Source: a virus. Taken from it: a DNA stretch of 45,290 nucleotides. The notes under the pieces were generated by a model, which ran no database searches, was not told where the DNA came from, and worked only from the letters and a program-made list of their open reading frames with translations. The position numbers and the translations under genes were made by a program. Shown here one piece after another: positions 10,211 through 31,300 of the stretch (position 1 is the stretch's first letter; every line of letters starts with the position of its first letter). The stretch lies in IMG/VR virus record IMGVR_UViG_3300042882_001578, positions 1-45,290 of that record. One strand, 5' to 3'.

Positions 10211-11576
10211 ACCGGCCAGGCAGACTATTCGACCTCAACCTGGTCCACAGGAGCAATTCTTAGCTAGTGAAGCTGATATCGTTTTCTATGGTGGTTCAGC
10301 CGGTGGAGGTAAATCTTTCGGCCTCCTCATGGAGCCGCTTCGCCATGTAACCACGAATTCTGAATTCTATACAGTAATCTTCCGCCGGAACACCACTCAG
10401 ATCCGCAATCCGGGCGGCTTATGGGATGAGGCCATGAAGCTTTACCCTTGGGCGAACGGTAGGCCGGTCAATCATGTCTTGGAATGGCGTTGGAACAAAG
10501 GTGGAAAGATCCGTATGGCCCACCTGGAACATGAGAACTCTGTTTTAGACTGGCAGGGTGCCCAGATCCCACTTATCATGTTTGATGAGTTGACCCATTT
10601 CACAGAAAAGCAATTCTTTTATATGCTTTCCAGAAACCGATCAATGTGTGGAGTCCGCCCTTACATCCGAGGCACTACTAATCCAGATGCGGATAGTTGG
10701 GTGGCCCGTTTCATAGCTTGGTGGATTGATGAAGATGGTTCCCCGATTGAAGAACGCTCCGGTAAGATTAGATGGTTCATTCGATTAAGTGATACTATAA
10801 TTTGGGCGGACTCAGCAGAAGAATTGATAAAAGAATACGGTACGGATGTCAGGCCAAAGAGTTTTACCTTTATTCGCGCTCGTCTGGAAGATAATCCGGC
10901 CCTTCTAAAAGCCGACCCTGGCTACCGTGCCAATTTAATGGCCCTCTCTCGTGTCGAGCGTGAAAGGCTCCTGGGCGGTAACTGGAAGGTACGGCCATCC
11001 GCTGGAATGTATTTCAAAAGGCATGAGATCACCTTAGTTGATTCAATCCCTGATGACATAATAAAATTAGTCCGTTACTGGGACTTGGCCGCCACAGAAC
11101 CTGGTGAAGATAACCCTGATCCGGATTGGACAGCCGGTGTTTTGATGGGGCTTCGAAAAAATGGTAGATACATAGTCCTGGATGTTATACACTGCCGTAA
11201 GAAATCTGGTTCTGTTCGGGAACTGGTTCTTCGTACCGCAAGCAATGATACCCGTCAAGTTAAGATCGGATTACCGCAAGATCCTGGTCAGGCTGGTAAG
11301 GATCAAGCCGAGAGTTATGTCAGCCTCTTAGCCGGATTCCCTGTCGAGGTCGTTAGGGAGACGGGGGATAAAGTAACCCGCGCAGATCCATTTGCCGCTC
11401 AATGGCAAAACAATAATGTGGATATCCTGAGAGGTTCTTGGAATGAAGGGTATTTTGATGAACTAGAAGCTTTTCCTTCAAAAGCTCATGATGACCGTGT
11501 TGATGGTTCATCAGGGGCTTTTAGAATGTTGACAGGTAATTCTATAGCCGTTTGGTCTAAATTGGGGAAAAAATGA
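10179..11576 (+). CDS. terL: terminase large subunit
   Basis: 465 aa. Walker A at residues 38-46 (GGSAGGGKS) and Walker B near 131-137 (LIMFDEL) form the packaging ATPase. The C-terminal nuclease has RYWDLAAT near 300, LPQDPGQAGKDQ near 370 and HDDRVDG near 440, the acidic residues of a Terminase_6-type RNase H fold. It cuts and pumps phage DNA into the prohead through the portal. The ATG at 10179 lies inside terS with no clear ribosome site, so translation is probably coupled. Length is usual for the family. Confidence 0.92.
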   Translation: MQKKLSKKTSKPARQTIRPQPGPQEQFLASEADIVFYGGSAGGGKSFGLLMEPLRHVTTNSEFYTVIFRRNTTQIRNPGGLWDEAMKLYPWANGRPVNHVLEWRWNKGGKIRMAHLEHENSVLDWQGAQIPLIMFDELTHFTEKQFFYMLSRNRSMCGVRPYIRGTTNPDADSWVARFIAWWIDEDGSPIEERSGKIRWFIRLSDTIIWADSAEELIKEYGTDVRPKSFTFIRARLEDNPALLKADPGYRANLMALSRVERERLLGGNWKVRPSAGMYFKRHEITLVDSIPDDIIKLVRYWDLAATEPGEDNPDPDWTAGVLMGLRKNGRYIVLDVIHCRKKSGSVRELVLRTASNDTRQVKIGLPQDPGQAGKDQAESYVSLLAGFPVEVVRETGDKVTRADPFAAQWQNNNVDILRGSWNEGYFDELEAFPSKAHDDRVDGSSGAFRMLTGNSIAVWSKLGKK

Positions 11577-13399
11577 ATATCGAGCAACAAATCAAGAATG
11601 CAAAAGAGGCTGAGGCTGAGGCTAAAGAAACTTCAAAAACCGTAGATAGTTTTGTAAATTTTGCACACAACCTCGGGATTGGGGCCGATAACCCAATGAC
11701 CACTTCATCCTATGGATTCAACCCGGTCACCCGCAATAAAGTACTACTTGAATGGATTCACCGTGGTTCTTGGATCGGTGGTATCGCCGTGGATACTGTG
11801 GCTGATGATATGACCCGGGCCGGCGTCTCTATCCGTGGTGAATTGAGTCCAGATTACATTGCAGCTATTGAGGAAGAAGCTACCGTCTTGGACATCTGGA
11901 GTCAATTGAATGAGGCTATTAAGTGGGGCCGACTCTATGGTGGTAGCCTAGCTGTTATGTTAATCGATGGCCAGGATACTGAATCCCCGCTTCGATTAAA
12001 CACCATTCGTAAAGATCAGTTTTGTGGTTTCCTACCACTGGATCGGTGGATGGTGGAACCTAGTTTTAATGATCTTGTTACAGATTTCGGCCCTAACTTA
12101 GGAAAACCTAAGTATTATCGCGTAACTTCAAACGCTCCAGCATTGATAGGTCAACGAATTCACTTTAGCCGGTGTATCCGGTTTGAAGGAGTTACCCTCC
12201 CCTATAGCCAACGATTAATGGAAAATTTCTGGGGCTTATCAGTTCTTGAACGGTTGTATGATCGAATGATTGCTTTTGATTCGGCAACCACTGGGGCGGC
12301 TCAGTTGGTCTTCAAATCTTACCTCCGTACTTACAAAATCAAAGATCTTAGAGAAGTGGTAGCGGCTGGTGGAGAGGCTTTGGCCGGTCTAACCGCTTAT
12401 GTTGAAATGATGCGTCGATTCCAAGGGGTTGAAGGCATTACCTTGCTAGATGCAGATGATGAGTTTACCGCAGATAGCCACGGGGCTTTCGGTGGGTTAT
12501 CTGACGCTTTAATACAATTCAGTCAGCAGTTATCTGGAGCCCTGCAAATACCGTTGGTGCGGTTATTCGGTCAAAGTCCATCTGGTTTCAGTACCGGGGA
12601 GGCAGATTTACGTAACTACTATGATACTATTAAACAACAGCAGGTTCGGACACTCCAAGTCCCAATGACCAAAGCTTACCGGGCGATTGCGGCTTCTCTT
12701 GGTATCAAGGTACCAGAAGGGTTCCAGCTCCAGTTCAACAACTTATGGCAAGATACAGATTCCGAAAAAGGAGAGGTAGCTGGAAAGACTTTTGATGTGG
12801 TTAGTCGTGCAGAGGAATCTGGTTTGGTAGACAAAGCCTGTGCCTTAAGGGAGTTGCGCCAATCTTCGAAAATCACCGGTATCTTTACAAACATTACAGA
12901 CGAAATGATTGAAGAGGCGGAGAATGAACCACCTCCTCTACCTGAAACCGTACCCGGTGAAGAACCTCAAAAGGAGGAAGTTGTCCCAGAGGTTTTGAAT
13001 ACTCCAAAAACCACGGATACTAAGTTACGGGCCGCGGCTTTAGTTCCTTTCTCAAAGAATCGGCGAGTGCTTCTACTCCTCCGTGCTGAAGGGGCAGATT
13101 ATCCGGAGTACTGGGCCGGCCCTGGAGGCAAGATAGAAGGGAATGAAACACCTATTGGAACCGCTATCCGAGAAACCTCGGAAGAAACTGGTTTTGCCAT
13201 TGCCCCTAATATGATTGATACTCAAAAAGGTTTTGTTTACGATGGGGTACTGGTTCTACCAACAAAACCATTAGATTTTGAATTTGTACCAAGATTAAAC
13301 GATGAATCAGAAGCCGGTATGTGGTTCGATTTGACTGACCTACCCTCCCCTCTGCATCCTGTATGCTATGAAGCTTTGTGTACCTGGGGATGGGTATAA
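11573..13399 (+). CDS. portal protein (DUF1073-like) fused to a C-terminal Nudix hydrolase
   Basis: 608 aa. Residues 1-440 are a portal of the DUF1073 type (ATVLDIWSQLNEAIKWGRLY, WGLSVLERLYDRM, QIPLVRLFGQSPSGFSTGEA, then a DLRNYYDTI helix). A proline/glutamate linker follows (PPPLPETVPGEEPQKEEVVP). Residues 483-608 are a complete Nudix domain with a perfect box: G-x5-E-x7-R-E-T-S-E-E-T-G-F within a GGKIEGNETPIGTAIRETSE stretch. At the junction is K-T-T-D-T (479-483), matching the putative prohead-protease motif. ATGA overlap with terL. The portal is expected at one head vertex; the Nudix enzyme hydrolyses nucleoside-diphosphate-linked substrates, here unknown. Confidence 0.88.
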   Translation: MNIEQQIKNAKEAEAEAKETSKTVDSFVNFAHNLGIGADNPMTTSSYGFNPVTRNKVLLEWIHRGSWIGGIAVDTVADDMTRAGVSIRGELSPDYIAAIEEEATVLDIWSQLNEAIKWGRLYGGSLAVMLIDGQDTESPLRLNTIRKDQFCGFLPLDRWMVEPSFNDLVTDFGPNLGKPKYYRVTSNAPALIGQRIHFSRCIRFEGVTLPYSQRLMENFWGLSVLERLYDRMIAFDSATTGAAQLVFKSYLRTYKIKDLREVVAAGGEALAGLTAYVEMMRRFQGVEGITLLDADDEFTADSHGAFGGLSDALIQFSQQLSGALQIPLVRLFGQSPSGFSTGEADLRNYYDTIKQQQVRTLQVPMTKAYRAIAASLGIKVPEGFQLQFNNLWQDTDSEKGEVAGKTFDVVSRAEESGLVDKACALRELRQSSKITGIFTNITDEMIEEAENEPPPLPETVPGEEPQKEEVVPEVLNTPKTTDTKLRAAALVPFSKNRRVLLLLRAEGADYPEYWAGPGGKIEGNETPIGTAIRETSEETGFAIAPNMIDTQKGFVYDGVLVLPTKPLDFEFVPRLNDESEAGMWFDLTDLPSPLHPVCYEALCTWGWV

Positions 13400-13417: not shown

Positions 13418-13828
13418 ATGGCTAGTAGGAAGATTGAAGATTTACAACAACCCGTAGCTACCAGATGCCGACAGTTTATACGTAAATGTGAAGACATTGG
13501 TATCGATGTAATTATCACCTGTACCTACCGCTCCATTGAAGAACAGAACATCTTATTTGCTCAAGGTCGTAGCCGGCCAGGCAACCGGGTAACCCAAGTC
13601 AAAGGCGGAGATTCTTTTCATCAATGGGGAGTGGCATTTGACTTTGCCCCATTACACCATGGAAAGATAGACTGGAATGATATTGACCTGTTTAAAAAAT
13701 GCGGCAAAATAGCAGAATCCTGTGGCCTTGAGTGGGGTGGTAGTTGGACCAAGTTCAAGGATTATCCTCATTGTCAATACACCGGTGGGTTGACCATTGC
13801 AGACTTCAAAGCCGGTAAAAAGCTGTGA
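13418..13828 (+). CDS. endolysin, M15-family peptidase (VanY/L-Ala-D-Glu peptidase type)
   Basis: 136 aa. TCTYRSIEEQNILFAQGRS, SFHQWGVAFDF (zinc ligands His and Asp in S-x-H-x-x-G-x-A-x-D) and DYPHCQY (third zinc ligand His) are the hallmarks of M15 peptidases such as phage L-alanyl-D-glutamate peptidases that cut peptidoglycan stem peptides. There is no signal sequence, so it needs a holin for release. Unusually it sits between portal and Mu F-like head genes, away from the holin-like cluster at 16079-17004. GGAG lies seven bases before the ATG. Confidence 0.85.
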   Translation: MASRKIEDLQQPVATRCRQFIRKCEDIGIDVIITCTYRSIEEQNILFAQGRSRPGNRVTQVKGGDSFHQWGVAFDFAPLHHGKIDWNDIDLFKKCGKIAESCGLEWGGSWTKFKDYPHCQYTGGLTIADFKAGKKL

Positions 13829-21561: not shown

Positions 21562-22941
21562 ATGGCTACAAGTACTTTTTATACCATAGAGCAGATTGGA
21601 CCAAAACAGAGTTTTACTCCTGAGGGTTTTTTGCTTTGTGAAGATGTACCTGTGGCCAGGACCGGAATGATGATTTACGGCCCAAATGAAACTCCAGTTG
21701 AAGCAGGTCCAGATGGCCTTGTAAAGATTCACCGTGAAGATGCCGATGTTTTCAGACCGGAGACTATTGCCAGCGCTCAAGGTAAATCAGTTACTAATGA
21801 CCATCCCGATGACGATGTCACACCAAACCTATGGAAAGAACTTAGCCATGGAATAATGCTTAACGTCCGCAGAGGTGTTGGCGCTTTTGATGATTTGCTT
21901 TTAGCTGATCTTTTGATTACAACAGAGGATGGTATAAAAGCAGTTCAAGAAGGCAAACGGGAGGTTAGCTTAGGTTATGAGGCAGACTATGTCCAATTAG
22001 CCCCAGGTATAGGCAAACAAACAAACATTATCATTAACCATGTAGCCTTAGTAGAACAAGGTAGATGTGGCCCACGTTGTGCAATTAAAGACGAGAAACC
22101 TGAAATTTCAAAAACAGAGGTAATTATGAAAACCAGAAAGACAAGAAGCATCCATGACAAACTAGCTTCCCTGCTGCGTCGTTCGTTTAAAGCGAAAGAT
22201 GAGGCGGAATTGGAAGATGTTATCCAAGACGCTGCAGAACTAGAAATTGGGGCAGTTTCTGGTGATGAAGAATTTGAACCACCGGTTGAGAAAGAGGATG
22301 AGGATATCCACATTCATGTTGATGGTCAGGATGATGGTGAAGATTTCCGTACCAACGATGACGAGTTATGGGAACAGAATGCTGCAGAGCATGCCGCTCT
22401 TTGGGAAGCTATCCATGAGTTAAGAGCTCAACTGGGTGGTGGAGTCGAAGATTCCGATCCAGACCTGGATATAAATGAGCAATCCTCAGAGCAGGCTATG
22501 TTGGATGAAGTTCCTGAAGGTTTGGAAGAAGAAGCTGCCAAAGCCCAAGATTCTCGTTACTTAGGTGAATCCTACCGAGACACCGTAGCTCTTGCCGAGA
22601 TCCTGGTTCCAGGTATTCAGCAACCGACTTTCGATAGTGCCACAAAACCAATGCAAACCTTTAAAAAGATTTGTGGTTTCCGTCGCAAAGCTTTGGACCT
22701 GGCTTACAAGGACAGTACCTCTAAACCCATCCTGGACGATTTGTTGCTTGGTAAACCGATGAACACTAAAAACATGACCTGCGACGCTGTTCGCACTTTG
22801 TTTAATTCAGCCGCTGCTACAAAACGCCGGATGAATAATAGTTCCGGTACCCGGGATTCTATTCAATTACCAAAATCACCTAAACCTTTGACTTTGGCTG
22901 AACTGAATGCTCGCAACCGCGAAAAATACGCTGTAAAATAA
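21562..22941 (+). CDS. prohead protease (DUF2213-like) fused to scaffold
   Basis: 459 aa. Residues 1-175 are the protease: RTGMMIYGPNETPVE, ITNDHPDDDV-type segment (TNDHPDDDVT, catalytic His), then GKREVSLGYEADY (Ser) and NHVALVEQGRCGPRC. Residues 189-459 are a highly charged, helical scaffold region. Inside it lie D-I-H-I-H-V (248-253), K-A-K-D-E (210-214) and K-A-Q-D-S (327-331). The protease should cleave scaffold and capsid proteins during maturation. It sits just before decoration and capsid genes. The fusion and an internal start (22126) parallel phages where protease and scaffold share one gene. Confidence 0.82.
   Translation: MATSTFYTIEQIGPKQSFTPEGFLLCEDVPVARTGMMIYGPNETPVEAGPDGLVKIHREDADVFRPETIASAQGKSVTNDHPDDDVTPNLWKELSHGIMLNVRRGVGAFDDLLLADLLITTEDGIKAVQEGKREVSLGYEADYVQLAPGIGKQTNIIINHVALVEQGRCGPRCAIKDEKPEISKTEVIMKTRKTRSIHDKLASLLRRSFKAKDEAELEDVIQDAAELEIGAVSGDEEFEPPVEKEDEDIHIHVDGQDDGEDFRTNDDELWEQNAAEHAALWEAIHELRAQLGGGVEDSDPDLDINEQSSEQAMLDEVPEGLEEEAAKAQDSRYLGESYRDTVALAEILVPGIQQPTFDSATKPMQTFKKICGFRRKALDLAYKDSTSKPILDDLLLGKPMNTKNMTCDAVRTLFNSAAATKRRMNNSSGTRDSIQLPKSPKPLTLAELNARNREKYAVK
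22126..22941 (+). CDS. probable scaffold protein from internal in-frame start
   Basis: Met189 of the protease-scaffold gene is preceded by AGAGG with five bases of spacing, and this is exactly where protease homology ends and charged helical sequence begins (MKTRKTRSIHDKLASLLRRS). It would give a 271-aa free scaffold, like lambda Nu3 inside gene C. The nested start is inferred. Confidence 0.4.
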   Translation: MKTRKTRSIHDKLASLLRRSFKAKDEAELEDVIQDAAELEIGAVSGDEEFEPPVEKEDEDIHIHVDGQDDGEDFRTNDDELWEQNAAEHAALWEAIHELRAQLGGGVEDSDPDLDINEQSSEQAMLDEVPEGLEEEAAKAQDSRYLGESYRDTVALAEILVPGIQQPTFDSATKPMQTFKKICGFRRKALDLAYKDSTSKPILDDLLLGKPMNTKNMTCDAVRTLFNSAAATKRRMNNSSGTRDSIQLPKSPKPLTLAELNARNREKYAVK

Positions 22942-22964: not shown

Positions 22965-23498
22965 ATGAAGAAAATGAGAATGAAAACCCGTGATGCGGCT
23001 TTCGGTTTCCGTATGGGAGCTGGTTTCGCGGGCGATGTAAACCGTACCCATCCGTCTAGCATTGAGCCTGCTTTAAACGATACCGGAACTCCTGTTGGAG
23101 CATTTGGCCACGCCGTTCTGGTCGACCAAACAGACCAAACTGTTCGTCCTTTTGCAGCTGGTGACACTGCTATAACTGTGGCCTACGGTGTTTCCGTTAG
23201 ACCCTATCCCTTTCAACAATCTTCTGCCAGTAACTTCGGTGAAGCTACTTTCGGAGATGCTGTTCCACCTGCTGGTGCCATCGATATCCTACGTTCGGGC
23301 TACATCATGGCAAAAGTGACTGGTACACCTAAAAAAGGTAACCCAGTCTATGTCTGGTGTGCGGCTTCTTCTGGGGCTCACGTACAAGGTCAGTTTGAAG
23401 CTTCCGCGACCGGTGGCTCCACAGCAGCTTTGGCAAACGCTACTTTCAACGGCTCACCTGATTCCTCTGGTGTAGTCGAAGTTGCTTTTAACATTTAA
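22965..23498 (+). CDS. head decoration / capsid-associated protein
   Basis: 177 aa. Lies between the protease-scaffold gene and the major capsid gene, the normal place for a decoration protein. The first 11 residues are basic (MKKMRMKTRDA) and contain K-T-R-D-A, the putative cleavage motif; the body is small-residue-rich beta sequence (PAGAIDILRSGYIMAKVTGT). Structural relatives in DUF2184 phages occupy the same slot. ACGGAG precedes the start. Confidence 0.68.
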   Translation: MKKMRMKTRDAAFGFRMGAGFAGDVNRTHPSSIEPALNDTGTPVGAFGHAVLVDQTDQTVRPFAAGDTAITVAYGVSVRPYPFQQSSASNFGEATFGDAVPPAGAIDILRSGYIMAKVTGTPKKGNPVYVWCAASSGAHVQGQFEASATGGSTAALANATFNGSPDSSGVVEVAFNI

Positions 23499-23510: not shown

Positions 23511-24656
23511 ATGAGCAAACTAGGTAAACATATCGCCCTTGCATTAGCACCGGCTATTATCACTCGCAGTAAGACCAGAGACATTATGACCTTCGATGAC
23601 TCTGGCTACCGTACTATTGACCGCTCTGGTACTCAAATGGGTCGTCCGTTAGGTAACTCTTTTCAAACACATGATGGACGCACTGTTGACTCAACCGGGG
23701 CTTTCTTGGTTGGTGAGCTGGAGCGCCTGGACTTAACCTTACATGAGCCATTGGCTTCTGTAACTTGGGGTCGAGATATTGACTTACGAGAAGACGTAAC
23801 CATAGCGGATGAAGTTTCATCCTTTACCTTAAGCACCTTCGCCGCTTCTGGTGGTTTAGGAACCGGTAATGGTATCCGTAACGGTAAAGCTTGGATCGGT
23901 AAAGATACCAATCAGATCTCTGGTATTGCTGCGGATATCGCTAAAATTCCACATCAATTGCGTCCTTGGGCTATGGAGTTGAAATACTCTATCTTGGAAT
24001 TGGAATCAGCTGCCAAGCTGGGCCGTCCAATTGACAACCAAAAATACGAAGGCTTGGCTCTGAAACATCAGATGGATATTGATGAGCAGGTTTACGTTGG
24101 TGATTCGACTACTGGTGACACCGGTTTGTTGAACAACTCCTTGGTAACCAATGTTCAAAACCTTCCGAACGGTGTAGCTGGTTCAACCAATTGGTCCGAT
24201 AAAACTCCGGATGAGATCCTGGCCGATGTTAACTTAATGTTGACTTCAGTCTGGTCCGCTTCAGCTTGGGCCGTTATGCCTACCCGGTTGCTATTGCCGC
24301 CTGCTCAATTTGGTTACATTAGCACTCAAAAGGTTTCCGCCGCTGGTAACGTTTCAATCTTGAAGTATATCCAAGAAAACAATTTGTTGACTACTTCTGG
24401 CCGCGGTTCGTTGGAAATCTTACCTGTAAAATGGTTAATTGGTGCAGGTGTTGGTGGTACTTTAGGTACTACCGGTACTGTGGACAGGGCAGTCGTCTAC
24501 ACGAAAGAGAAAAACCGTGTTCGTTTTCCAATGACCCTATTGCAACGTACTCCCGTTCAATATGATAGTATCTACCACAAAACCACATACTTTTGCCGCC
24601 TTGGTGCGGTTGAAGCGGTGTATCCGGAAACTATCGGTTACTTTGACGGAATCTAA
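23511..24656 (+). CDS. major capsid protein (DUF2184-like, HK97 fold)
   Basis: 381 aa. Recognisable by YRTIDRSGTQMGRPLGNSFQ, VTWGRDIDLREDV, PWAMELKYSILELESAAKLG and the QVYVGDSTTGDTGLLN loop, all typical of DUF2184 capsid proteins. The N-terminal 24 residues are basic and hydrophobic and end K-T-R-D-I, so residues 1-24 may be trimmed by the prohead protease. It forms the icosahedral shell. GGGG lies eight bases before the ATG. Confidence 0.88.
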   Translation: MSKLGKHIALALAPAIITRSKTRDIMTFDDSGYRTIDRSGTQMGRPLGNSFQTHDGRTVDSTGAFLVGELERLDLTLHEPLASVTWGRDIDLREDVTIADEVSSFTLSTFAASGGLGTGNGIRNGKAWIGKDTNQISGIAADIAKIPHQLRPWAMELKYSILELESAAKLGRPIDNQKYEGLALKHQMDIDEQVYVGDSTTGDTGLLNNSLVTNVQNLPNGVAGSTNWSDKTPDEILADVNLMLTSVWSASAWAVMPTRLLLPPAQFGYISTQKVSAAGNVSILKYIQENNLLTTSGRGSLEILPVKWLIGAGVGGTLGTTGTVDRAVVYTKEKNRVRFPMTLLQRTPVQYDSIYHKTTYFCRLGAVEAVYPETIGYFDGI

Positions 24657-25094: not shown

Positions 25095-25256
25095 ATGGAA
25101 GGCCAAGTCGATAAACCAGTTGGCCTTCCAATAAAGGATCTTGCTCAGGTGGAAGAGAATGATGTTTCTTTTTTACCTGTAGCAGAATCCCTATCTCTTC
25201 AACAGCTGAACGATAATAACAGAAAGTATTGGGAACAAGGGGAAAACCATGACTAA
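25095..25256 (+). CDS. small hypothetical protein with start codon inside a hairpin
   Basis: 53 aa, not found by length cut-offs. The C-terminal LSLQQLNDNNRKYWEQGEN resembles a short motif (..A.NRKYW...) seen in other phage proteins. It overlaps the first HIH-tag gene by eight bases. Its ATG lies at the edge of an 11-bp perfect hairpin (25096-25130) that should hide the start. Confidence 0.5.
   Translation: MEGQVDKPVGLPIKDLAQVEENDVSFLPVAESLSLQQLNDNNRKYWEQGENHD
25096..25130 (+). promoter_or_regulatory. 11-bp perfect hairpin over a start codon
   Basis: TGGAAGGCCAA and TTGGCCTTCCA pair perfectly around a 13-nt loop. The 5' arm begins at the second base of the ATG at 25095. No T tract follows, so it is more likely a translation-control or RNA-processing hairpin than a terminator. 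Confidence 0.55.
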
Positions 25257-25467
25257 ACATATTCACGTCCACATTGGCAAAAAGAAAACCACTGATGCTG
25301 ATTATTCCTATAATGTTGGTCAAGCTACGTTGGCCCTGGATAAAGCCCACTATGAACTTTTATCTGCTCAAAGAAGCGATGATATTGACCAAGATGGTGA
25401 TTCCAGAATCGAGGATGCTTTGAAACTTATCCGGAAGGCAAAAGATATTGTACTCAGGATAAAGTAA
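25249..25467 (+). CDS. HIH-tag small protein 1 (putative internal head protein)
   Basis: 72 aa. Begins MTKHIHVHIGKKKTTDA: alternating His residues on a short strand, a lysine run, then K-T-T-D-A. The remaining 56 residues form a two-helix hairpin (YNVGQATLALDKAHYELLSA and EDALKLIRKAKDIVLRIK). The same start occurs in four other genes of this window whose bodies differ. It lies between capsid-associated and connector genes. I infer a capsid-targeting tag removed by cleavage after Asp16; function of the mature part is unknown. Confidence 0.65.
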   Translation: MTKHIHVHIGKKKTTDADYSYNVGQATLALDKAHYELLSAQRSDDIDQDGDSRIEDALKLIRKAKDIVLRIK

Positions 25468-25929
25468 ATGACCATTACACCCCAACAACTTCGCTCCGAT
25501 TATCCGGAGTTCGCCAGTACAGTAGCCTATCCAAACTCTGCTTTGGAGTATTGGTTAAATCTGGCTTACTTGATGTTGAATGCACCTCGTTGGGGCAGTA
25601 TGTTAGATCTTGGAGCGGCTTTATTTGTGGCTCACCATGTTACCATTGAAGCGCGGAACCAAGCGGTTGCAGCTAATGGAGGTATCCCAGGTGAACAAAC
25701 TGGGCCTCTTTCGAGCAAATCGGTTGACAAAGTATCAATTAGCTATGATACTGGTTCTGGGATTCAAGCCGATGCAGGCCATTGGAACATGACCGTTTAT
25801 GGGACTCGCTTTATTCGGTTGATGAGAATGTTCGGAGCTGGGCCAGTACAAGTAGGTATTGGCCAAGTTCCTTCTGGTTCTGGTCTTGGTTGGCCAGGCC
25901 CAATTGGTTCAAATATTTACGGGAACTGA
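25468..25929 (+). CDS. head-tail connector, DUF4054-like
   Basis: 153 aa. LRSDYPEFASTVAYPNSALE, a helical middle with ALFVAHHVTIEARNQ, and VDKVSISYDTG match the DUF4054 adaptor family found after capsid genes in myophages. It would bind the portal ring. The start is joined to the previous stop, with AGGATAAAGTAA supplying the ribosome site. The Gly-rich tail (SGSGLGWPGPIG) is typical. Confidence 0.75.
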   Translation: MTITPQQLRSDYPEFASTVAYPNSALEYWLNLAYLMLNAPRWGSMLDLGAALFVAHHVTIEARNQAVAANGGIPGEQTGPLSSKSVDKVSISYDTGSGIQADAGHWNMTVYGTRFIRLMRMFGAGPVQVGIGQVPSGSGLGWPGPIGSNIYGN

Positions 25930-25930
25930 G

Positions 25931-26488
25931 GTGAACCTCAAGAACGCCTTGCAGATGACCTTGGATCTACTGCCGGATGTGAAGATCAGGCTTTCGTCCT
26001 TGGTTGATGCGGAAGTTCTTGTTGGTGTTCCAGAAGATAATACCCAACGTCAGGATAATGGTCCGACCAATTCAATGCTGGCCTATATTCATGACAACGG
26101 TTCCCCGATTAGGAATATTCCAGCCAGGCCTTTTATGAGGCCTGGAATAGCTTCTGCTAAAAGTGATGTTATTCGGGCTCTTAAGTGGGGAGCGGATGAA
26201 GTTTTGGATGGTAATGAAAACGCCGGCCGTTTGGCTTTACATAAAGCCGGATTAATAGCTCAAGCTAAAATACGCGCAGCTATTAATGAAGGAATCCCAC
26301 CTCCACTAGCCGACTCTACCTTGAAAGGTAGGATAAGAGCGCGAAGAGGGGTAAAAGGTGCCACCGCGGAATTAGCTGCTAGAAAAGCCGGGGAAATGCC
26401 TTCCCTTGGGTTGGCTAAGCCTTTAATTAATACCGGGCAGCTTCGCAACTCAATTAACTACATTGTAAGGAAAAAGAAAAATGGCTAG
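25931..26488 (+). CDS. tail-completion / virion morphogenesis protein (HK97 gp10-like region)
   Basis: 185 aa from GTG 25931, one base after the previous stop (TGAGGTG). The reading frame is open back to 25859, but that part only shadows the connector gene. Features: VGVPEDNTQRQDN, SMLAYIHDNGSP, IPARPFMRPGI and a basic C-terminus with LINTGQLRNSINYIVRKKKN, the pattern of gp10/Mu G-type neck proteins where PARPF.RPG and TG.L..SI recur. Ends eight bases inside the next HIH-tag gene. Confidence 0.72.
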   Translation: MNLKNALQMTLDLLPDVKIRLSSLVDAEVLVGVPEDNTQRQDNGPTNSMLAYIHDNGSPIRNIPARPFMRPGIASAKSDVIRALKWGADEVLDGNENAGRLALHKAGLIAQAKIRAAINEGIPPPLADSTLKGRIRARRGVKGATAELAARKAGEMPSLGLAKPLINTGQLRNSINYIVRKKKNG

Positions 26489-26516
26489 ACATATTCATAT
26501 TCATATAGGAATGAAA
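26447..26516 (+). repeat. duplicated block, copy A (gene end plus HIH tag)
   Basis: From AACTCAATTAACTACATT through the HIH-tag codons this block is closely similar to 26963-27032, including an identical GTAAGGAAAAAGAAAAATGG stretch. In copy A it is the 3' end of the tail-completion gene and the start of HIH protein 2. Confidence 0.7.
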
Positions 26517-26918
26517 ACTACCTCCAGAGTTCGAGATTCGGAAGATCCTCGAGTCCTCGAAGGATTGGCTAACCATGCTATTGAAAAATTACGATCAGGT
26601 AACACCGGGTTTCCATTTGAAAATGTCGCTAACCAAGCCATTAAGTCTTATCAAACAGCCTCAGAACTATATACAAACCAAAATGATCCACAAGGGCAAC
26701 GGAGATGCAACCTTAAGGTCCAAGCTATTAAAAAAGCTCTTTCAGAATATGAAAGATTAGTGGGTGATGTTAAGAGGCTTTCGGCTTTATCGATGGAAAT
26801 ATACAAAAAAGAATCTTCTGGGGCTGAGGTTCCAAGAGCCGAAAAATTACGAGTCTCTAGGGAGTACAAGGCAGCGGAAGCTTCCCTACGGAAACCGTTT
26901 CAAAATATCAGTATCTAA
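26481..26918 (+). CDS. HIH-tag small protein 2 (putative internal head protein)
   Basis: 145 aa. Begins MARHIHIHIGMKTTSRVRDS; the tag is kept but the K-x-x-D-A site is altered to a longer K-T-T-S-R-V-R-D-S. The body is entirely helical and charged (NQAIKSYQTASELYTNQNDP, AIKKALSEYERLVGDVKRLS), like a TPR/coiled-coil repeat. It overlaps the tail-completion gene by eight bases; the ribosome site (GTAAGGAAAAAG) is inside that gene. Function unknown. Confidence 0.62.
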   Translation: MARHIHIHIGMKTTSRVRDSEDPRVLEGLANHAIEKLRSGNTGFPFENVANQAIKSYQTASELYTNQNDPQGQRRCNLKVQAIKKALSEYERLVGDVKRLSALSMEIYKKESSGAEVPRAEKLRVSREYKAAEASLRKPFQNISI

Positions 26919-26962
26919 ATAATACCATACTATATTGACTAAACAAATGACCGTTACTCAGT

Positions 26963-27032
26963 AACTCAATCGACTATGGTGTAAGGAAAAAGAAAAATGG
27001 CTAAACATATCCACATTCACGTAGGAAAAAGA
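26963..27032 (+). repeat. duplicated block, copy B (fossil gene end plus HIH tag)
   Basis: AACTCAATCGACTATGGTGTAAGG followed by the shared GAAAAAGAAAAATGG leader. The noncoding part still reads V-R-K-K-K-N-G-stop, the exact C-terminus of the tail-completion protein, so it is a leftover of that gene carried along with the tag. Confidence 0.7.
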
Positions 27033-27275
27033 AAAACCACTGATGCTTTCAATCCTCAATCTATGATAGCCCTTTGTAGATCCGCAATCAAGAATGCAGC
27101 AGCTTTCCAAGAAGCTGCAGGCAATAGACCTGGTGCGGCTAAAGTTTACGCGGAGGCTATTTCCGCTTATGAGAAAGGGATGTCGGCTGCAAGAAAAGGG
27201 AATGAGGATGAAAGCAAATCTTATTATACCAAAGGTAACAACCTCACTAGGCAAGCACATACCATAGCAGCTTAA
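26997..27275 (+). CDS. HIH-tag small protein 3 (putative internal head protein)
   Basis: 92 aa. MAKHIHIHVGKRKTTDA is followed by a 76-residue helical body (CRSAIKNAAAFQEAAGNRPG, AAKVYAEAISAYEKGMSAAR), a TPR-like hairpin loosely similar to protein 1. Both flanks are fossil sequence: the upstream leader is the 3' end of the tail-completion gene, and 27331-27349 repeats the 3' end of HIH gene 1. It looks like an inserted, recombined cassette. Confidence 0.63.
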   Translation: MAKHIHIHVGKRKTTDAFNPQSMIALCRSAIKNAAAFQEAAGNRPGAAKVYAEAISAYEKGMSAARKGNEDESKSYYTKGNNLTRQAHTIAA

Positions 27276-27281
27276 AGGTTT

Positions 27282-27311
27282 GAATACAGATGCTTGAGTA
27301 TATCTGTATTC
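27282..27311 (+). other. 10-bp perfect hairpin after HIH gene 3
   Basis: GAATACAGAT and ATCTGTATTC pair around a 10-nt loop, seven bases past the stop codon. No T run, so probably an RNA-stability or processing element, or a trace of the insertion event. Confidence 0.5.
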
Positions 27312-27346
27312 TTGCAGAAAAGAAGAAACCCTTGAGGATAAAGTAA

Positions 27347-27790
27347 ATGCCATTTCTAGATGTCACCTCAGTTTTAACTGATCCGGACTTCGCGGATAGT
27401 TTTACAGTAGAGCGCCGTTCTGAGGTGGTGGATGAATACGGCCGGTCAATTCAGACTATCTTACCTTTCAGGACTTCTGGTGTAGTGACTGTTGGGTCAC
27501 CAAATGATCTAGACAGGCCCGAAGAATATGAAAAGTTCACCAGATCCATTACTGTGGTCACTAAAGCTCGTTTACGGGGAGCGGTTCAAGGCTTCCAGCC
27601 AGATGTAATCGTTTGGCGGGATAGTAGGTTCGTGGTGAAAGCTATAGACTTGTATCCGCATTTTGGGGCTGGTTTTTATCAAATCGAAGCCGAGTCCATG
27701 GAAATGGTAGATAATAATACCGATCCGACTTCCGAAGGGAAGTTCATTTTTAATAATGTAGCTAATGCAGGCTTCGTTGGAGTTTTATGA
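27347..27790 (+). CDS. neck/head-tail joining protein
   Basis: 147 aa. FTVERRSEVVDEYGRSIQTI, then GVVTVGSPNDL and SRFVVKAIDLYPHFGAGFYQ: a beta-barrel-like protein similar to head-tail joining and stopper proteins in this gene position. Starts at an ATG with AGGATAAAGTAA in front, the same 15-mer that precedes the DUF4054 gene. Overlaps the next gene by ATGA. Confidence 0.6.
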   Translation: MPFLDVTSVLTDPDFADSFTVERRSEVVDEYGRSIQTILPFRTSGVVTVGSPNDLDRPEEYEKFTRSITVVTKARLRGAVQGFQPDVIVWRDSRFVVKAIDLYPHFGAGFYQIEAESMEMVDNNTDPTSEGKFIFNNVANAGFVGVL

Positions 27791-28116
27791 AACTTAATGT
27801 CTTAGATGCTTCTGGGGTACCTCAGCAATTACTGGTCGAAGGATTAGAGGCGATTACTGATAAATCAGGTTCCATTACCGCAACCGGTGTCTCCCAAGTC
27901 GCTATTGCGGCTAATAGTGCCCGGTCTGGATTTCTGATCCAGAATAGAAGTCTGAATCCGATGCATATTAATGACCTCGGAGCAGCTACTGTCGGGGCTA
28001 GTTCTTTTACTTTGGCCCCTGGCGAATGCTTTCCACCAGCCGGCTACCCAATAACTGCCAATGCGATCAATATCCTTGGTACTGTTTCAGATATATTTTC
28101 CGCGAGGGAGTGGTAA
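27787..28116 (+). CDS. small beta-rich virion protein
   Basis: 109 aa. SQVAIAANSARSGFLIQNRS, then PMHINDLGAATVGASSFTLA, GYPITANAINILGT: a jelly-roll-like fold common in small phage structural proteins. Coupled by ATGA at its start and TAATG at its end to HIH gene 4. Exact role unknown. Confidence 0.55.
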   Translation: MKLNVLDASGVPQQLLVEGLEAITDKSGSITATGVSQVAIAANSARSGFLIQNRSLNPMHINDLGAATVGASSFTLAPGECFPPAGYPITANAINILGTVSDIFSAREW

Positions 28117-28538
28117 TGGCAATTCATATTCATATTGGAAAAAAGAAGGCTAAAGATGCTGTTAAGTACGTCAGTAATATCGATATCCGCCTTCCGAATG
28201 GTAAAGTGGTCCCGAACGGGACTGTTTTCTATAAAATTGGGCCAAACCTTTATCGGCCTTATTTTGCCAGACCGGGAGAGTCAGATGTCCGCATCTCTCC
28301 AGATAGATTCGTTATTGAGGATAGTAAAGCTAAAGATGCTACTCCATCCGCTTTTTTGAAAAAGCACCCAATGTGGAGTGAATCCGATTACTCCTATTTT
28401 AAAAACAAAGGGTATACGGACAAGGAGATTTTAGCTCTTTGGGATCGAGATCAAAAAAGTGGTGGAGGCCCGGTTAATCATAAACCTATTCCAAATGTGC
28501 TCGGCAGGATAAACGGTAAAATTGTAACTAATGCCTAA
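28116..28538 (+). CDS. HIH-tag small protein 4, possible two-part precursor
   Basis: 140 aa from ATG 28116 (TAATG overlap); an upstream in-frame start at 28026 only shadows the previous gene. MAIHIHIGKKKAKDA is the tag with K-A-K-D-A. Residues 16-70 are a beta-rich domain (NGTVFYKIGPNLYRPYFARP). Then a second K-A-K-D-A occurs, followed by a helical domain (SESDYSYFKNKGYTDKEILA) known as a short module in other phage proteins. If the motif is a cleavage site, one precursor would give two mature peptides. Confidence 0.63.
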   Translation: MAIHIHIGKKKAKDAVKYVSNIDIRLPNGKVVPNGTVFYKIGPNLYRPYFARPGESDVRISPDRFVIEDSKAKDATPSAFLKKHPMWSESDYSYFKNKGYTDKEILALWDRDQKSGGGPVNHKPIPNVLGRINGKIVTNA

Positions 28539-29115
28539 CACCAGCGCCACTGGCGGTTTCCTTTTACCTAATTCAAATCCGGAAGTTCTCGATGGAGAAC
28601 TTCTCCAAAATATTATACATGATTGGATAACTGGGATTACAGGATTAGCTCCTGATCTGGTTAGGCCAAGGTGGCAACCAGAACCGGCTAACATCCCGGA
28701 TTTCGGAATCAATTGGTGTGCTTTTGGAATCGTTCGACGGGAGAATGACCCTTTTGCTAGTCAACAGCATTGGGGTACTAACAACGGTTATGATGAGATC
28801 CGCAGGCACCAATTGCTCCATTGCTTGGCTTCGTTTTATGGAACTGATGCTGATACCAGCCTCCTTTTGTTCCAAGAGGGGATGCAAATTGCCCAGAACC
28901 GGGACTTGTTGACGGCTAATGAGATGAATTTGGTTGGTTCAGAAGAACCAATTACTGTTCCAGAATTTATTAAAGAACGTTGGCTGTACCGGGTGGATTT
29001 GCCTTTTACCCTCAGACGCCGGATAATCCTAAGGTATCCAATACTTAATCTGCTCTCTGCTGAAGTCGATATCAACAATGAGCATTATACTGAAAATGTT
29101 TTAATTACCAACTAG
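28531..29115 (+). CDS. neck / tail terminator protein (gp12-like, LIC_12616-type)
   Basis: 194 aa. ELLQNIIHDWITGITGLAPD, LVRPRWQPEPANIPDFGINW, then EIRRHQLLHCLASFYGTDAD and PFTLRRRIILRYPIL match the neck terminator proteins that lie directly before DUF3383-type sheath genes. It would cap the tail tube at the neck. Overlaps HIH gene 4 by eight bases. Confidence 0.7.
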   Translation: MPNTSATGGFLLPNSNPEVLDGELLQNIIHDWITGITGLAPDLVRPRWQPEPANIPDFGINWCAFGIVRRENDPFASQQHWGTNNGYDEIRRHQLLHCLASFYGTDADTSLLLFQEGMQIAQNRDLLTANEMNLVGSEEPITVPEFIKERWLYRVDLPFTLRRRIILRYPILNLLSAEVDINNEHYTENVLITN

Positions 29116-29123
29116 GAGCAACC

Positions 29124-30623
29124 ATGGCCAAGGCTCTACCGATTAGCAGGCTCATCAACGTTGATGTAAACCTGTCTCCTTCTGCCGCTCAGATGCAGAA
29201 TATTTCCACCTTGTTGATTCTTGGAACCTCCACGGTAATTGATGTTATCGAACGTTTCAGAACTTACGCCTCAATCGATGCTGTAGCCAGTGATTTCGGT
29301 ACTAGTGCCGAAGAGTACCTGGCTGCTTTATTATGGTTTGAACAAGCTCCTCAACCAAACGAATTACTGATTGGGCGTTGGGCGAAAACAGCTACAAAAG
29401 GTCGCCTCACCGGCAAAACCCTTAGTGCTGCTGAACAGCAGTTAGCGTCTTGGAAGGCGGTTACCACCCCATCCTTTCGGGTAGCTATTGACGGTGGAGC
29501 ACCGTCTGATATTGGCGTAGGTAGCTTTGCCACTGTGACGAATCTCAACGGTGTTGCTGCTTTAATCCAAACAGCTTTGAATTCGTTTATGACCGGTTCC
29601 ACTTGTGTTTGGGATGGTAATTACAACCGTTTTGTGATCGAATCAGGAACTGCCGGAGCCTTATCCAATGTGAGTTTCTTGGTGGCTCCATCTACCGGAA
29701 CAGATATCTCTTTGATGTTGGGGATGCGTGCTACTAGTTCTGGAGCCTATGTATCCGACGGTGTTGCTGCAGAAACTGCAGTGACTGCTGTTTCTAAGTT
29801 TGATGCAGATTATGGCCAACGGTGGTATGCCACTACAGTCCTTGGTTCAGCCTCTAATGCTGACCACCAAGCGATTGCTGCTTATCTTGAAGCTACCGAC
29901 ACCAAGCACCTTTACGGGGTATCCACACAAGAAGCTGGTGTCCTGGTTTCTGGTGATACTACGAATATTGCTTATTTGTTAAGTCAGGCAGAGTATAAGC
30001 GTTCAGTGGTACAATACTCTAGCTCAAATCCCTATTCCGTATGTTCTTTGCTTGGACGTATCTTGACGGTGAATTACAATGGTAACAACACTGTAATCAC
30101 CTTGATGTATAAACAGGAACCTGGAATTGTCCCAGAAACTTTGAATAGCAATCAGGTTACTAACCTGGAAAATTTCAAATGCAACGTATTCGTATCTTAT
30201 AACAACGATACCGCCATCATTGAAAAAGGGGTTGTCTCTAGTGGGGACTTCCTGGATATCATAACTGGTACCGATTGGTTGGCGCTACAGATTCAGAACG
30301 AAGTTTTCAATTTACTGTACACTAGCTTGACCAAGATTCCACAAACAGATCCTGGGCATCATATTTTAGTGACTGCTATTGAAGGGGTTTGTTCCCAAGC
30401 GGTTAGGAATGGTTTATTGGCACCTGGTACTTGGACTTCAGGTGGTTTTGGTATTTTGGAACAAAATGATTTCTTACCGAAGGGCTTCTATGTATACGCA
30501 CCACCGGTAGCCCAACAATTCGCAGCCGATAGAGCCGCCCGTAGATCTGTCCCGATCCAAGTAGCCGCTAAATTGGCTGGCGCAATCCACACTGTGGACA
30601 TTACTATTAACGTAAACAGATAA
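29124..30623 (+). CDS. tail sheath protein (DUF3383-like)
   Basis: 499 aa. RLINVDVNLSPSAAQMQNIS, EEYLAALLWFEQAPQPNELL, IGRWAKTATKGRL, then KQEPGIVPETLNSNQVTNLE and GGFGILEQNDFLPKGFYVYA are classic DUF3383 sheath features. It forms the contractile outer tail. GAGCAACC precedes the ATG. It proves the myophage morphology together with the baseplate genes. Confidence 0.9.
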   Translation: MAKALPISRLINVDVNLSPSAAQMQNISTLLILGTSTVIDVIERFRTYASIDAVASDFGTSAEEYLAALLWFEQAPQPNELLIGRWAKTATKGRLTGKTLSAAEQQLASWKAVTTPSFRVAIDGGAPSDIGVGSFATVTNLNGVAALIQTALNSFMTGSTCVWDGNYNRFVIESGTAGALSNVSFLVAPSTGTDISLMLGMRATSSGAYVSDGVAAETAVTAVSKFDADYGQRWYATTVLGSASNADHQAIAAYLEATDTKHLYGVSTQEAGVLVSGDTTNIAYLLSQAEYKRSVVQYSSSNPYSVCSLLGRILTVNYNGNNTVITLMYKQEPGIVPETLNSNQVTNLENFKCNVFVSYNNDTAIIEKGVVSSGDFLDIITGTDWLALQIQNEVFNLLYTSLTKIPQTDPGHHILVTAIEGVCSQAVRNGLLAPGTWTSGGFGILEQNDFLPKGFYVYAPPVAQQFAADRAARRSVPIQVAAKLAGAIHTVDITINVNR

Positions 30624-30632
30624 GGAGTTTAG

Positions 30633-31076
30633 ATGACCACTTACTCATTTTTAGAGGTCAATGCGGCGCTTGTTGGTCCAGGTGGAGCAATCAACTTGGG
30701 GCAAGGGGCAGCTGCCTCGGAAGAAGGTATAAGCATTGATCCAACTAGTCCAATCAACACCATGACTATTGCCGCGGATGGTACTCCAATGCAATCCCTT
30801 GGTGCCGATAAATCCGGGGTTGTCACCGTTACCTTGTTGAAAACCTCTCCTACTAATGCAAAGCTGTCAGCTATGTATGCTTTGCAAACAGCCTCTCCGG
30901 CTAGCCATGGACAGAACACCTTAACGGTGGCTTTGACTCATCTCGGTGACGTAATTACTTGTCAGCAAGTAGCTTTTCAAAAAGCCCCAAGTTTGAAGTA
31001 TGCGAAAGAAGGTGGTACTAATGACTGGGTTTTTGACGCCGGTATCATTGATCGTACGCTTGGTGGATTGATCTAA
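30633..31076 (+). CDS. tail tube protein (DUF3277-like)
   Basis: 147 aa. TYSFLEVNAALVGPGGAINL, SEEGISIDPTSPINTMTIAA, GTPMQSLGADKSGVVTVTLL, then NDWVFDAGIIDRTLGGLI: a standard DUF3277 tube subunit, following the sheath gene as usual. AAGGAG nine bases before the ATG. Its last base is the first of HIH gene 5's ATG. Confidence 0.9.
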   Translation: MTTYSFLEVNAALVGPGGAINLGQGAAASEEGISIDPTSPINTMTIAADGTPMQSLGADKSGVVTVTLLKTSPTNAKLSAMYALQTASPASHGQNTLTVALTHLGDVITCQQVAFQKAPSLKYAKEGGTNDWVFDAGIIDRTLGGLI

Positions 31077-31300
31077 TGGCTATCCATATCCATGTTGGAA
31101 AGAAAACGGTTGATGCTGATCCAATAAGTACCCGGAACCTTGATCCTGAGCAGGTTAAAAAAGAAAGGCGGGATGATAAAAGAATCCTTAGCAATATCTC
31201 ACAAAATCTAAAACAATTGAGCTATTGGTCGAAACAAAAGGCTTCTCGTATTGAAACCGAAATCGATAAATTACTTGACCAGATAGATGACCGCCAATGA
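31076..31300 (+). CDS. HIH-tag small protein 5 (putative internal head protein)
   Basis: 74 aa. MAIHIHVGKKTVDA is the tag with K-T-V-D-A. The rest is one long charged helix pair (NLDPEQVKKERRDDKRILSN, LKQLSYWSKQKASRIETEID). It is wedged with 1- and 4-base overlaps between tube and chaperone genes, a place where an extra gene is unusual. Function unknown; grouped with the other four by its N-terminus only. Confidence 0.62.
   Translation: MAIHIHVGKKTVDADPISTRNLDPEQVKKERRDDKRILSNISQNLKQLSYWSKQKASRIETEIDKLLDQIDDRQ

Follow-up and report, generated by a model that had tools for sequence, protein, structure and literature searches.

Five small genes in the head-tail region of a viral DNA begin with nearly the same histidine-rich stretch and continue into different bodies, which raises the question of what the common N-terminus is for. 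The DNA analysed was a single stretch of 45,290 nucleotides (IMG/VR record IMGVR_UViG_3300042882_001578, positions 1 to 45,290), referred to below as the window. It had been predicted, by analogy with T4, that the stretch is a capsid-targeting tag cut off by the prohead protease.

Tagged genes in the window

All five open reading frames were found at the starts originally assigned to them (Table 1), with the N-termini MTKHIHVHIGKKKTTDA (gene 25249), MARHIHIHIGMKTTSRVRDSE (26481), MAKHIHIHVGKRKTTDA (26997), MAIHIHIGKKKAKDA (28116) and MAIHIHVGKKTVDA (31076). The pattern H[IV]H[IV] was present within the first 11 residues of 5 of the 37 window genes, where shuffled proteins gave an expectation of 0.0037, and over 3000 shuffles of the window proteins the maximum was one such gene. 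As a description of the tag, HIH held, but the G-K-(K/R)-K said to follow it was not strict (G-M-K-T-T in 26481, G-K-K-T in 31076). The ending was K-[TA]-x-D-A or K-T-V-D-A in four of the five and RVRD-S in the remaining one. The description of the genes as inserted singly among structural genes failed for 26481 and 26997, which adjoin each other.

Above threshold, none of the five proteins matched any family in Pfam, PHROG or NCBIfam. Protein 25249 was without any match in Pfam and PHROG searches, 26481 gave only a sub-threshold SNAP/TPR-like match and 26997 sub-threshold TPR matches, while 31076 has a tagged homologue in a relative (L119, 56% identity). Family profile searches found no known conflict or effector domain in the five window proteins, candidates for such domains being seen in relatives only, and Pfam, PHROG and NCBIfam gave no sequence relationship of these proteins to the T4 internal proteins or the T4 targeting sequence. 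The 28116 protein contains a second KAKD↓A site (28326-28340; ↓, candidate cut) between its two modules; module 2 (HPMWSESDYSYFKNKGYTDKEILALWDRD) was also found in four other tagged proteins with differing partners.

Table 1. Coordinates of the tagged genes and of the head genes bearing candidate cleavage sites (↓)
Feature	Position	Strand	Details
Portal protein with C-terminal NUDIX domain (residues 485-594)	11573..13399	+	PF06381 and PF00293
DUF2213 protease-scaffold	21562..22941	+	PF09979 and head maturation protease PHROGs
Cement protein, E217/Pam3/XM1 type	22965..23498	+	PF22758/PF23982; putative propeptide end MKTRD↓A (K at 22983)
Major capsid protein	23511..24656	+	PF09950; variable propeptide, putative end SKTRD↓I (K at 23571)
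Tagged protein 1, 72 aa	25249..25467	+	tag HIHVHIGKKKTTD↓A (25249-25299), then small body
Tagged protein 2, 145 aa	26481..26918	+	tag HIHIHIGMKTTSRVRD↓S
Tagged protein 3, 92 aa	26997..27275	+	tag HIHIHVGKRKTTD↓A
Tagged protein 4, 140 aa, two modules	28116..28538	+	tag HIHIGKKKAKD↓A, then module 1
Tagged protein 5, 74 aa	31076..31300	+	tag HIHVGKKTVD↓A, coil-like body

Profile searches placed the five genes within the head-tail region of a contractile-tail phage, the other genes of which encode a MuF-like head protein, a DUF4054 head protein, a neck protein, a sheath, a tube-like protein and a tail chaperone. A gene for a D-Ala-D-Ala carboxypeptidase-type endolysin (13418-13828) lies between the portal and MuF-like head genes.

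Tagged proteins in related phages

Tagged proteins were collected by searches for relatives of the capsid and protease and by an unbiased DNA-pattern scan, and curation, with judgement on the start sites, gave a set of 68. These 68 proteins (62-467 aa) fell into about 41 unrelated body groups by BLAST. In their consensus H-[IV]-H is invariant and the third His usual, the other positions varying among I, V and L. Many tags lead into W-x-E-x-K/D-HPR-x-x-x-G-x-F-G-S-G-G, which was seen also on portal extensions and on proteins of other phages (motif loci L024:13449-14090, L110:7412-7978, L114:4926-5642, L163:2918-3235 and L253:9187-9720).

DUF2213 was present in 17 of the 41 contigs examined from the pattern scan; those with the tag pattern and no DUF2213 were short, ended close to the head genes, or had matched by chance. 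The original prediction had named occurrence of the tag in phages without a prohead protease as evidence against it, and no such case was met among the pattern-scan contigs. The same kind of scan in bacterial genomes (GTDB) gave 19 chance-like matches, the tag being essentially absent there. Viral contigs were also scanned with a shifted pattern as a control; the 4 matches were not used as a base rate, as this pattern was one codon longer and the comparison unfair. Named isolates found with the tag were Edwardsiella phage ZHS, phage WC36-2 and Burkholderia phage BgManors32 (tagged gene UEW68637), all three of which have a motif-bearing DUF2213 protease.

A common motif in capsid, cement, portal and tagged proteins

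The K-x-x-D motif at the cement and capsid N-termini and in the portal, the HIHV in the protease linker and the second KAKDA in 28116 had all been absent from the original prediction. Among relatives of the capsid protein, K/R-x-x-D stands directly before the mature part in 52 of 72 distinct N-termini, and 12 further genes begin at the mature N-terminus itself. The motif is likewise conserved among cement relatives, some genes of which also begin at the mature N-terminus. In both families the propeptide is free to vary in length and sequence while K/R-x-x-D is retained. The cement and capsid propeptides of L091:7864-9695, L071 and L060 resemble secretion signal peptides (MKK...LALA) ahead of R-T-x-D.

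A strict form of the motif, K/R-[TAS]-[KRGNTQ]-D-[AST], occurred 96 times in the proteases (6.5 in shuffled sequences) and 14 times in the cargo bodies (1.6 in shuffled sequences, the observed count being reached in 0 of 1000 shuffles); this consensus was picked after the first sites had been seen, which makes its significance somewhat optimistic, though control motifs were without excess. No excess over shuffles was found in the sheath, tube, neck and DUF4054 proteins of relatives. The loose form K-x-x-D-[AST] gave just 30 occurrences in cargo bodies against 18.7.

In the related DUF2213 phage E217, capsid residues 1-65 are not visible in the structure (PMC10329688), and the deposited chain begins at N66, directly after SAMD64-S65. 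The E217 DUF2213 protein also has an AMDS string. The E217 site, AMD↓S, matches only the D↓S part of the motif, and this phage has neither tag nor HxHxH. The first 30 residues of the XM1 capsid are likewise missing (PMC10457771). In both E217 (PMC10329688) and XM1 (PMC10457771) the cement is located on the outer capsid surface, so that its cutting by an internal protease needs explaining.

In the window portal, KTVD↓S (11636) lies close to the N-terminus and KTTD↓T (13007) at the NUDIX boundary. D-S-F-x-N-F is kept behind a variable leader in portal N-termini (window 11573-11650 and relatives), as if the portal too were trimmed after Asp. Portals of related phages frequently have C-terminal extensions, which are enzyme-like and in some cases stand behind a K-x-x-D motif (11 vs 4.5), and such an extension may represent a second loading route. 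Relatives' portals have other enzyme-like domains in the NUDIX position, an ART-like one among them (L188).

The protease linker

The window DUF2213 protein consists of a protease domain (residues 17-178) and a helical scaffold. The linker contains K-x-x-D-[AS] sites and a tag-like HIHV (22309), which the AlphaFold2 model places in a low-confidence loop between helices (residues 233-263). H81, S136 and H160 are invariant in this protease family. Assignment as a protease rests on profiles and the invariant His and Ser, because a fold search with the model against PDB gave no match at E <= 0.001. Of 73 relatives, 53 have HxHxH in the linker that joins the protease domain to the scaffold helices, typically as G-D/E-T-H-I-H-I-H-x-G.

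Over 93 distinct proteases, tag genes accompanied 26 of the 47 with linker HxHxH and 0 of the 46 without it (p 2e-10, a tip-level value that ignores relatedness). On the protease-domain tree, each of the 11 independent tag gains was on a branch with HxHxH (p 6e-4 by branch length); this test was a simple parsimony count, and its p value is the one to be trusted. Before the co-occurrence test, two apparent tag genes beside HxHxH-negative proteases, which were neck-like proteins, and one spurious tag gene on the HxHxH-positive side had been removed. The remaining 21 of the 47 phages with linker HxHxH had no tag gene within ~10 kb, which suggests that the first role of the motif is in the scaffold itself.

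Modular tagged proteins

The longer tagged proteins have additional K-[TAS]-x-D-[AST] sites inside their bodies. Modules common to several proteins started near such sites in 11 of 26 cases against 4.35 at random (4/5000), and one module, the only one behind its tag in L004, closes a protein of several modules in L019. The longer proteins, 28116 included, look like polyproteins in which modules are joined by K-x-x-D-A/S sites.

ParB-like matches were found in some tagged proteins of relatives. In a tagged protein of 467 aa (L163:3258-4658), the C-terminal half has the R, S-x-S, E-x-E pattern of ADP-ribosyltransferases; the pattern residues are conserved in a Bacillus phage SP-15 protein (30% identity), and neither Pfam nor NCBIfam supported the assignment. 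A single-sequence model of this candidate was poor (mean pLDDT 36) and was discarded. The candidate enzyme and the ParB-like matches may point to cargo that acts on the host.

Interpretation and alternatives

As far as sequence can tell, the five proteins probably carry a capsid-targeting sequence of the T4 kind in a DUF2213 phage, one that would dock on the scaffold and be removed by the prohead protease. One N-terminal propeptide is common to several proteins with unrelated bodies and, at the level of sequence, ends in a motif found also at the capsid and scaffold. The original prediction gained strong sequence support from the motif common to capsid, cement and scaffold, from the lack of any excess of it in sheath, tube, neck and DUF4054 proteins, from the co-occurrence with the matching protease motif and from the E217 N-terminus; the part played by the scaffold and the polyprotein build had escaped it.

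The five genes would then encode cargo brought into the prohead by its N-terminal propeptide, the HIHIH stretch docking on the internal scaffold during assembly. This scaffold would be the C-terminal half of the DUF2213 protease, the flexible linker of which bears the matching HIHIH. The protease, once activated, would cleave K/R-[TA]-x-D↓[AST] behind its Asp, both in its own scaffold half and in the capsid and cement propeptides and the cargo tags, as well as at the repeated sites within multi-module cargo, so that small mature proteins would be freed in the head and probably ejected with the DNA. Of these steps, cleavage of the tag in this phage is very likely and loading of the tagged proteins into the head likely; docking through HIHIH is somewhat favoured, and ejection of the cargo as host-acting effectors only marginally so. 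Alternation of His with Ile or Val suggests a beta strand, and the identical motifs on tag and scaffold suggest strand pairing, but homotypic pairing of the two HIHIH stretches can be put forward only tentatively. The designed catalytic amyloid peptide IHIHIQI binds zinc according to the literature, which is a chemical analogy and not evidence. Taken whole, a scheme of homotypic recruitment, possibly zinc-pinned, in which loaded polyproteins are turned by the protease into sets of small injected effectors, is doubtful.

Instead, the tagged proteins might act in head assembly, as aids to scaffolding or to setting the size of the prohead, and be cleaved to pieces and discarded along with the scaffold; they would then be neither kept nor injected. 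They do bear the scaffold's own motif and sites, many are small, and those with several sites would fragment as the scaffold does; their bodies, however, are highly variable across relatives and missing from many, unlike core assembly factors, and some have enzyme-like domains (the candidate ADP-ribosyltransferase of L163, the ParB-like matches). This role is considered unlikely. It is very improbable that HIHIH belongs to the tail, as an element that binds metal or has a structural role, comparable to the HxH metal sites of tail tips and unconnected with the head: the invariance of His among positions that vary between I, V and L would suit such an element, as would the location of some tagged genes among tail genes, but every tag runs into the head-protease motif, the protease linker has the same motif, tag genes were never found without it, and tail proteins have no excess of cleavage sites. 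Some window tags are alike in DNA (up to 28/36 bases), as would be expected of a leader recently duplicated and without any targeting role. Such shared ancestry alone is scarcely tenable given that the tag is retained in phages and on bodies that have diverged widely, with H-x-H invariant between variable flanks, and tracks a motif in a different protein, the protease. Docking, cleavage after Asp and retention in the head would account for everything that the sequences show: the tag and the motif it shares, how these are distributed, the co-occurrence with the protease motif and the placing of sites at module starts.

Comparison with known systems

Capsid-targeting propeptides cut by a prohead protease are a kind already known from T4, and the HIHIH tag is previously undescribed in the literature searched: searching full texts for HIHIH together with phage and capsid returned nothing, and the tag, its scaffold copy and polyprotein cargo were not mentioned there. 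The tag offers a sequence signature by which proteins loaded into the head, and probably injected, could be recognised in a large group of little-studied contractile-tail phages, where they otherwise look like unrelated hypothetical genes. A likely cleavage motif can be named for DUF2213 proteases and a route proposed by which cargo reaches the scaffold. Should the tag prove sufficient by itself, it would also serve as a small handle for placing proteins of choice in phage heads.

In T4, the internal proteins IPI-III and Alt carry a capsid-targeting sequence that is removed by gp21. The present system is similar in that a short N-terminal propeptide, predicted to be removed by the prohead protease, stands on several small proteins with different bodies and the cargo varies among relatives. 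It differs in the tag (HIHIH) and the site (K/R-T-x-D↓A/S, not the T4 gp21 motif), in the visibility of the tag motif in the protease-scaffold, in the many cargos that resemble multi-module polyproteins, and in a protease of the DUF2213 family from another phage lineage. In SPN3US and P1 several head proteins, ejected ones included, are matured by one prohead protease. Processing of several head proteins by one such protease, as predicted here, is a point of likeness; we know of no common short HIHIH tag in those phages. Packaging and injection have also been predicted for the multi-domain polyvalent proteins encoded by phages and by conjugative elements (Iyer et al. 2017, PMC5512222). They are described as large multidomain effectors, and the part of that account considered here mentions neither an HIHIH tag nor K-x-x-D↓A spacing of modules, while the term DUF2213 is absent from the paper; in their multi-domain build and their ART and ParB-like domains they resemble some tagged proteins of relatives, in which such domains are candidates.
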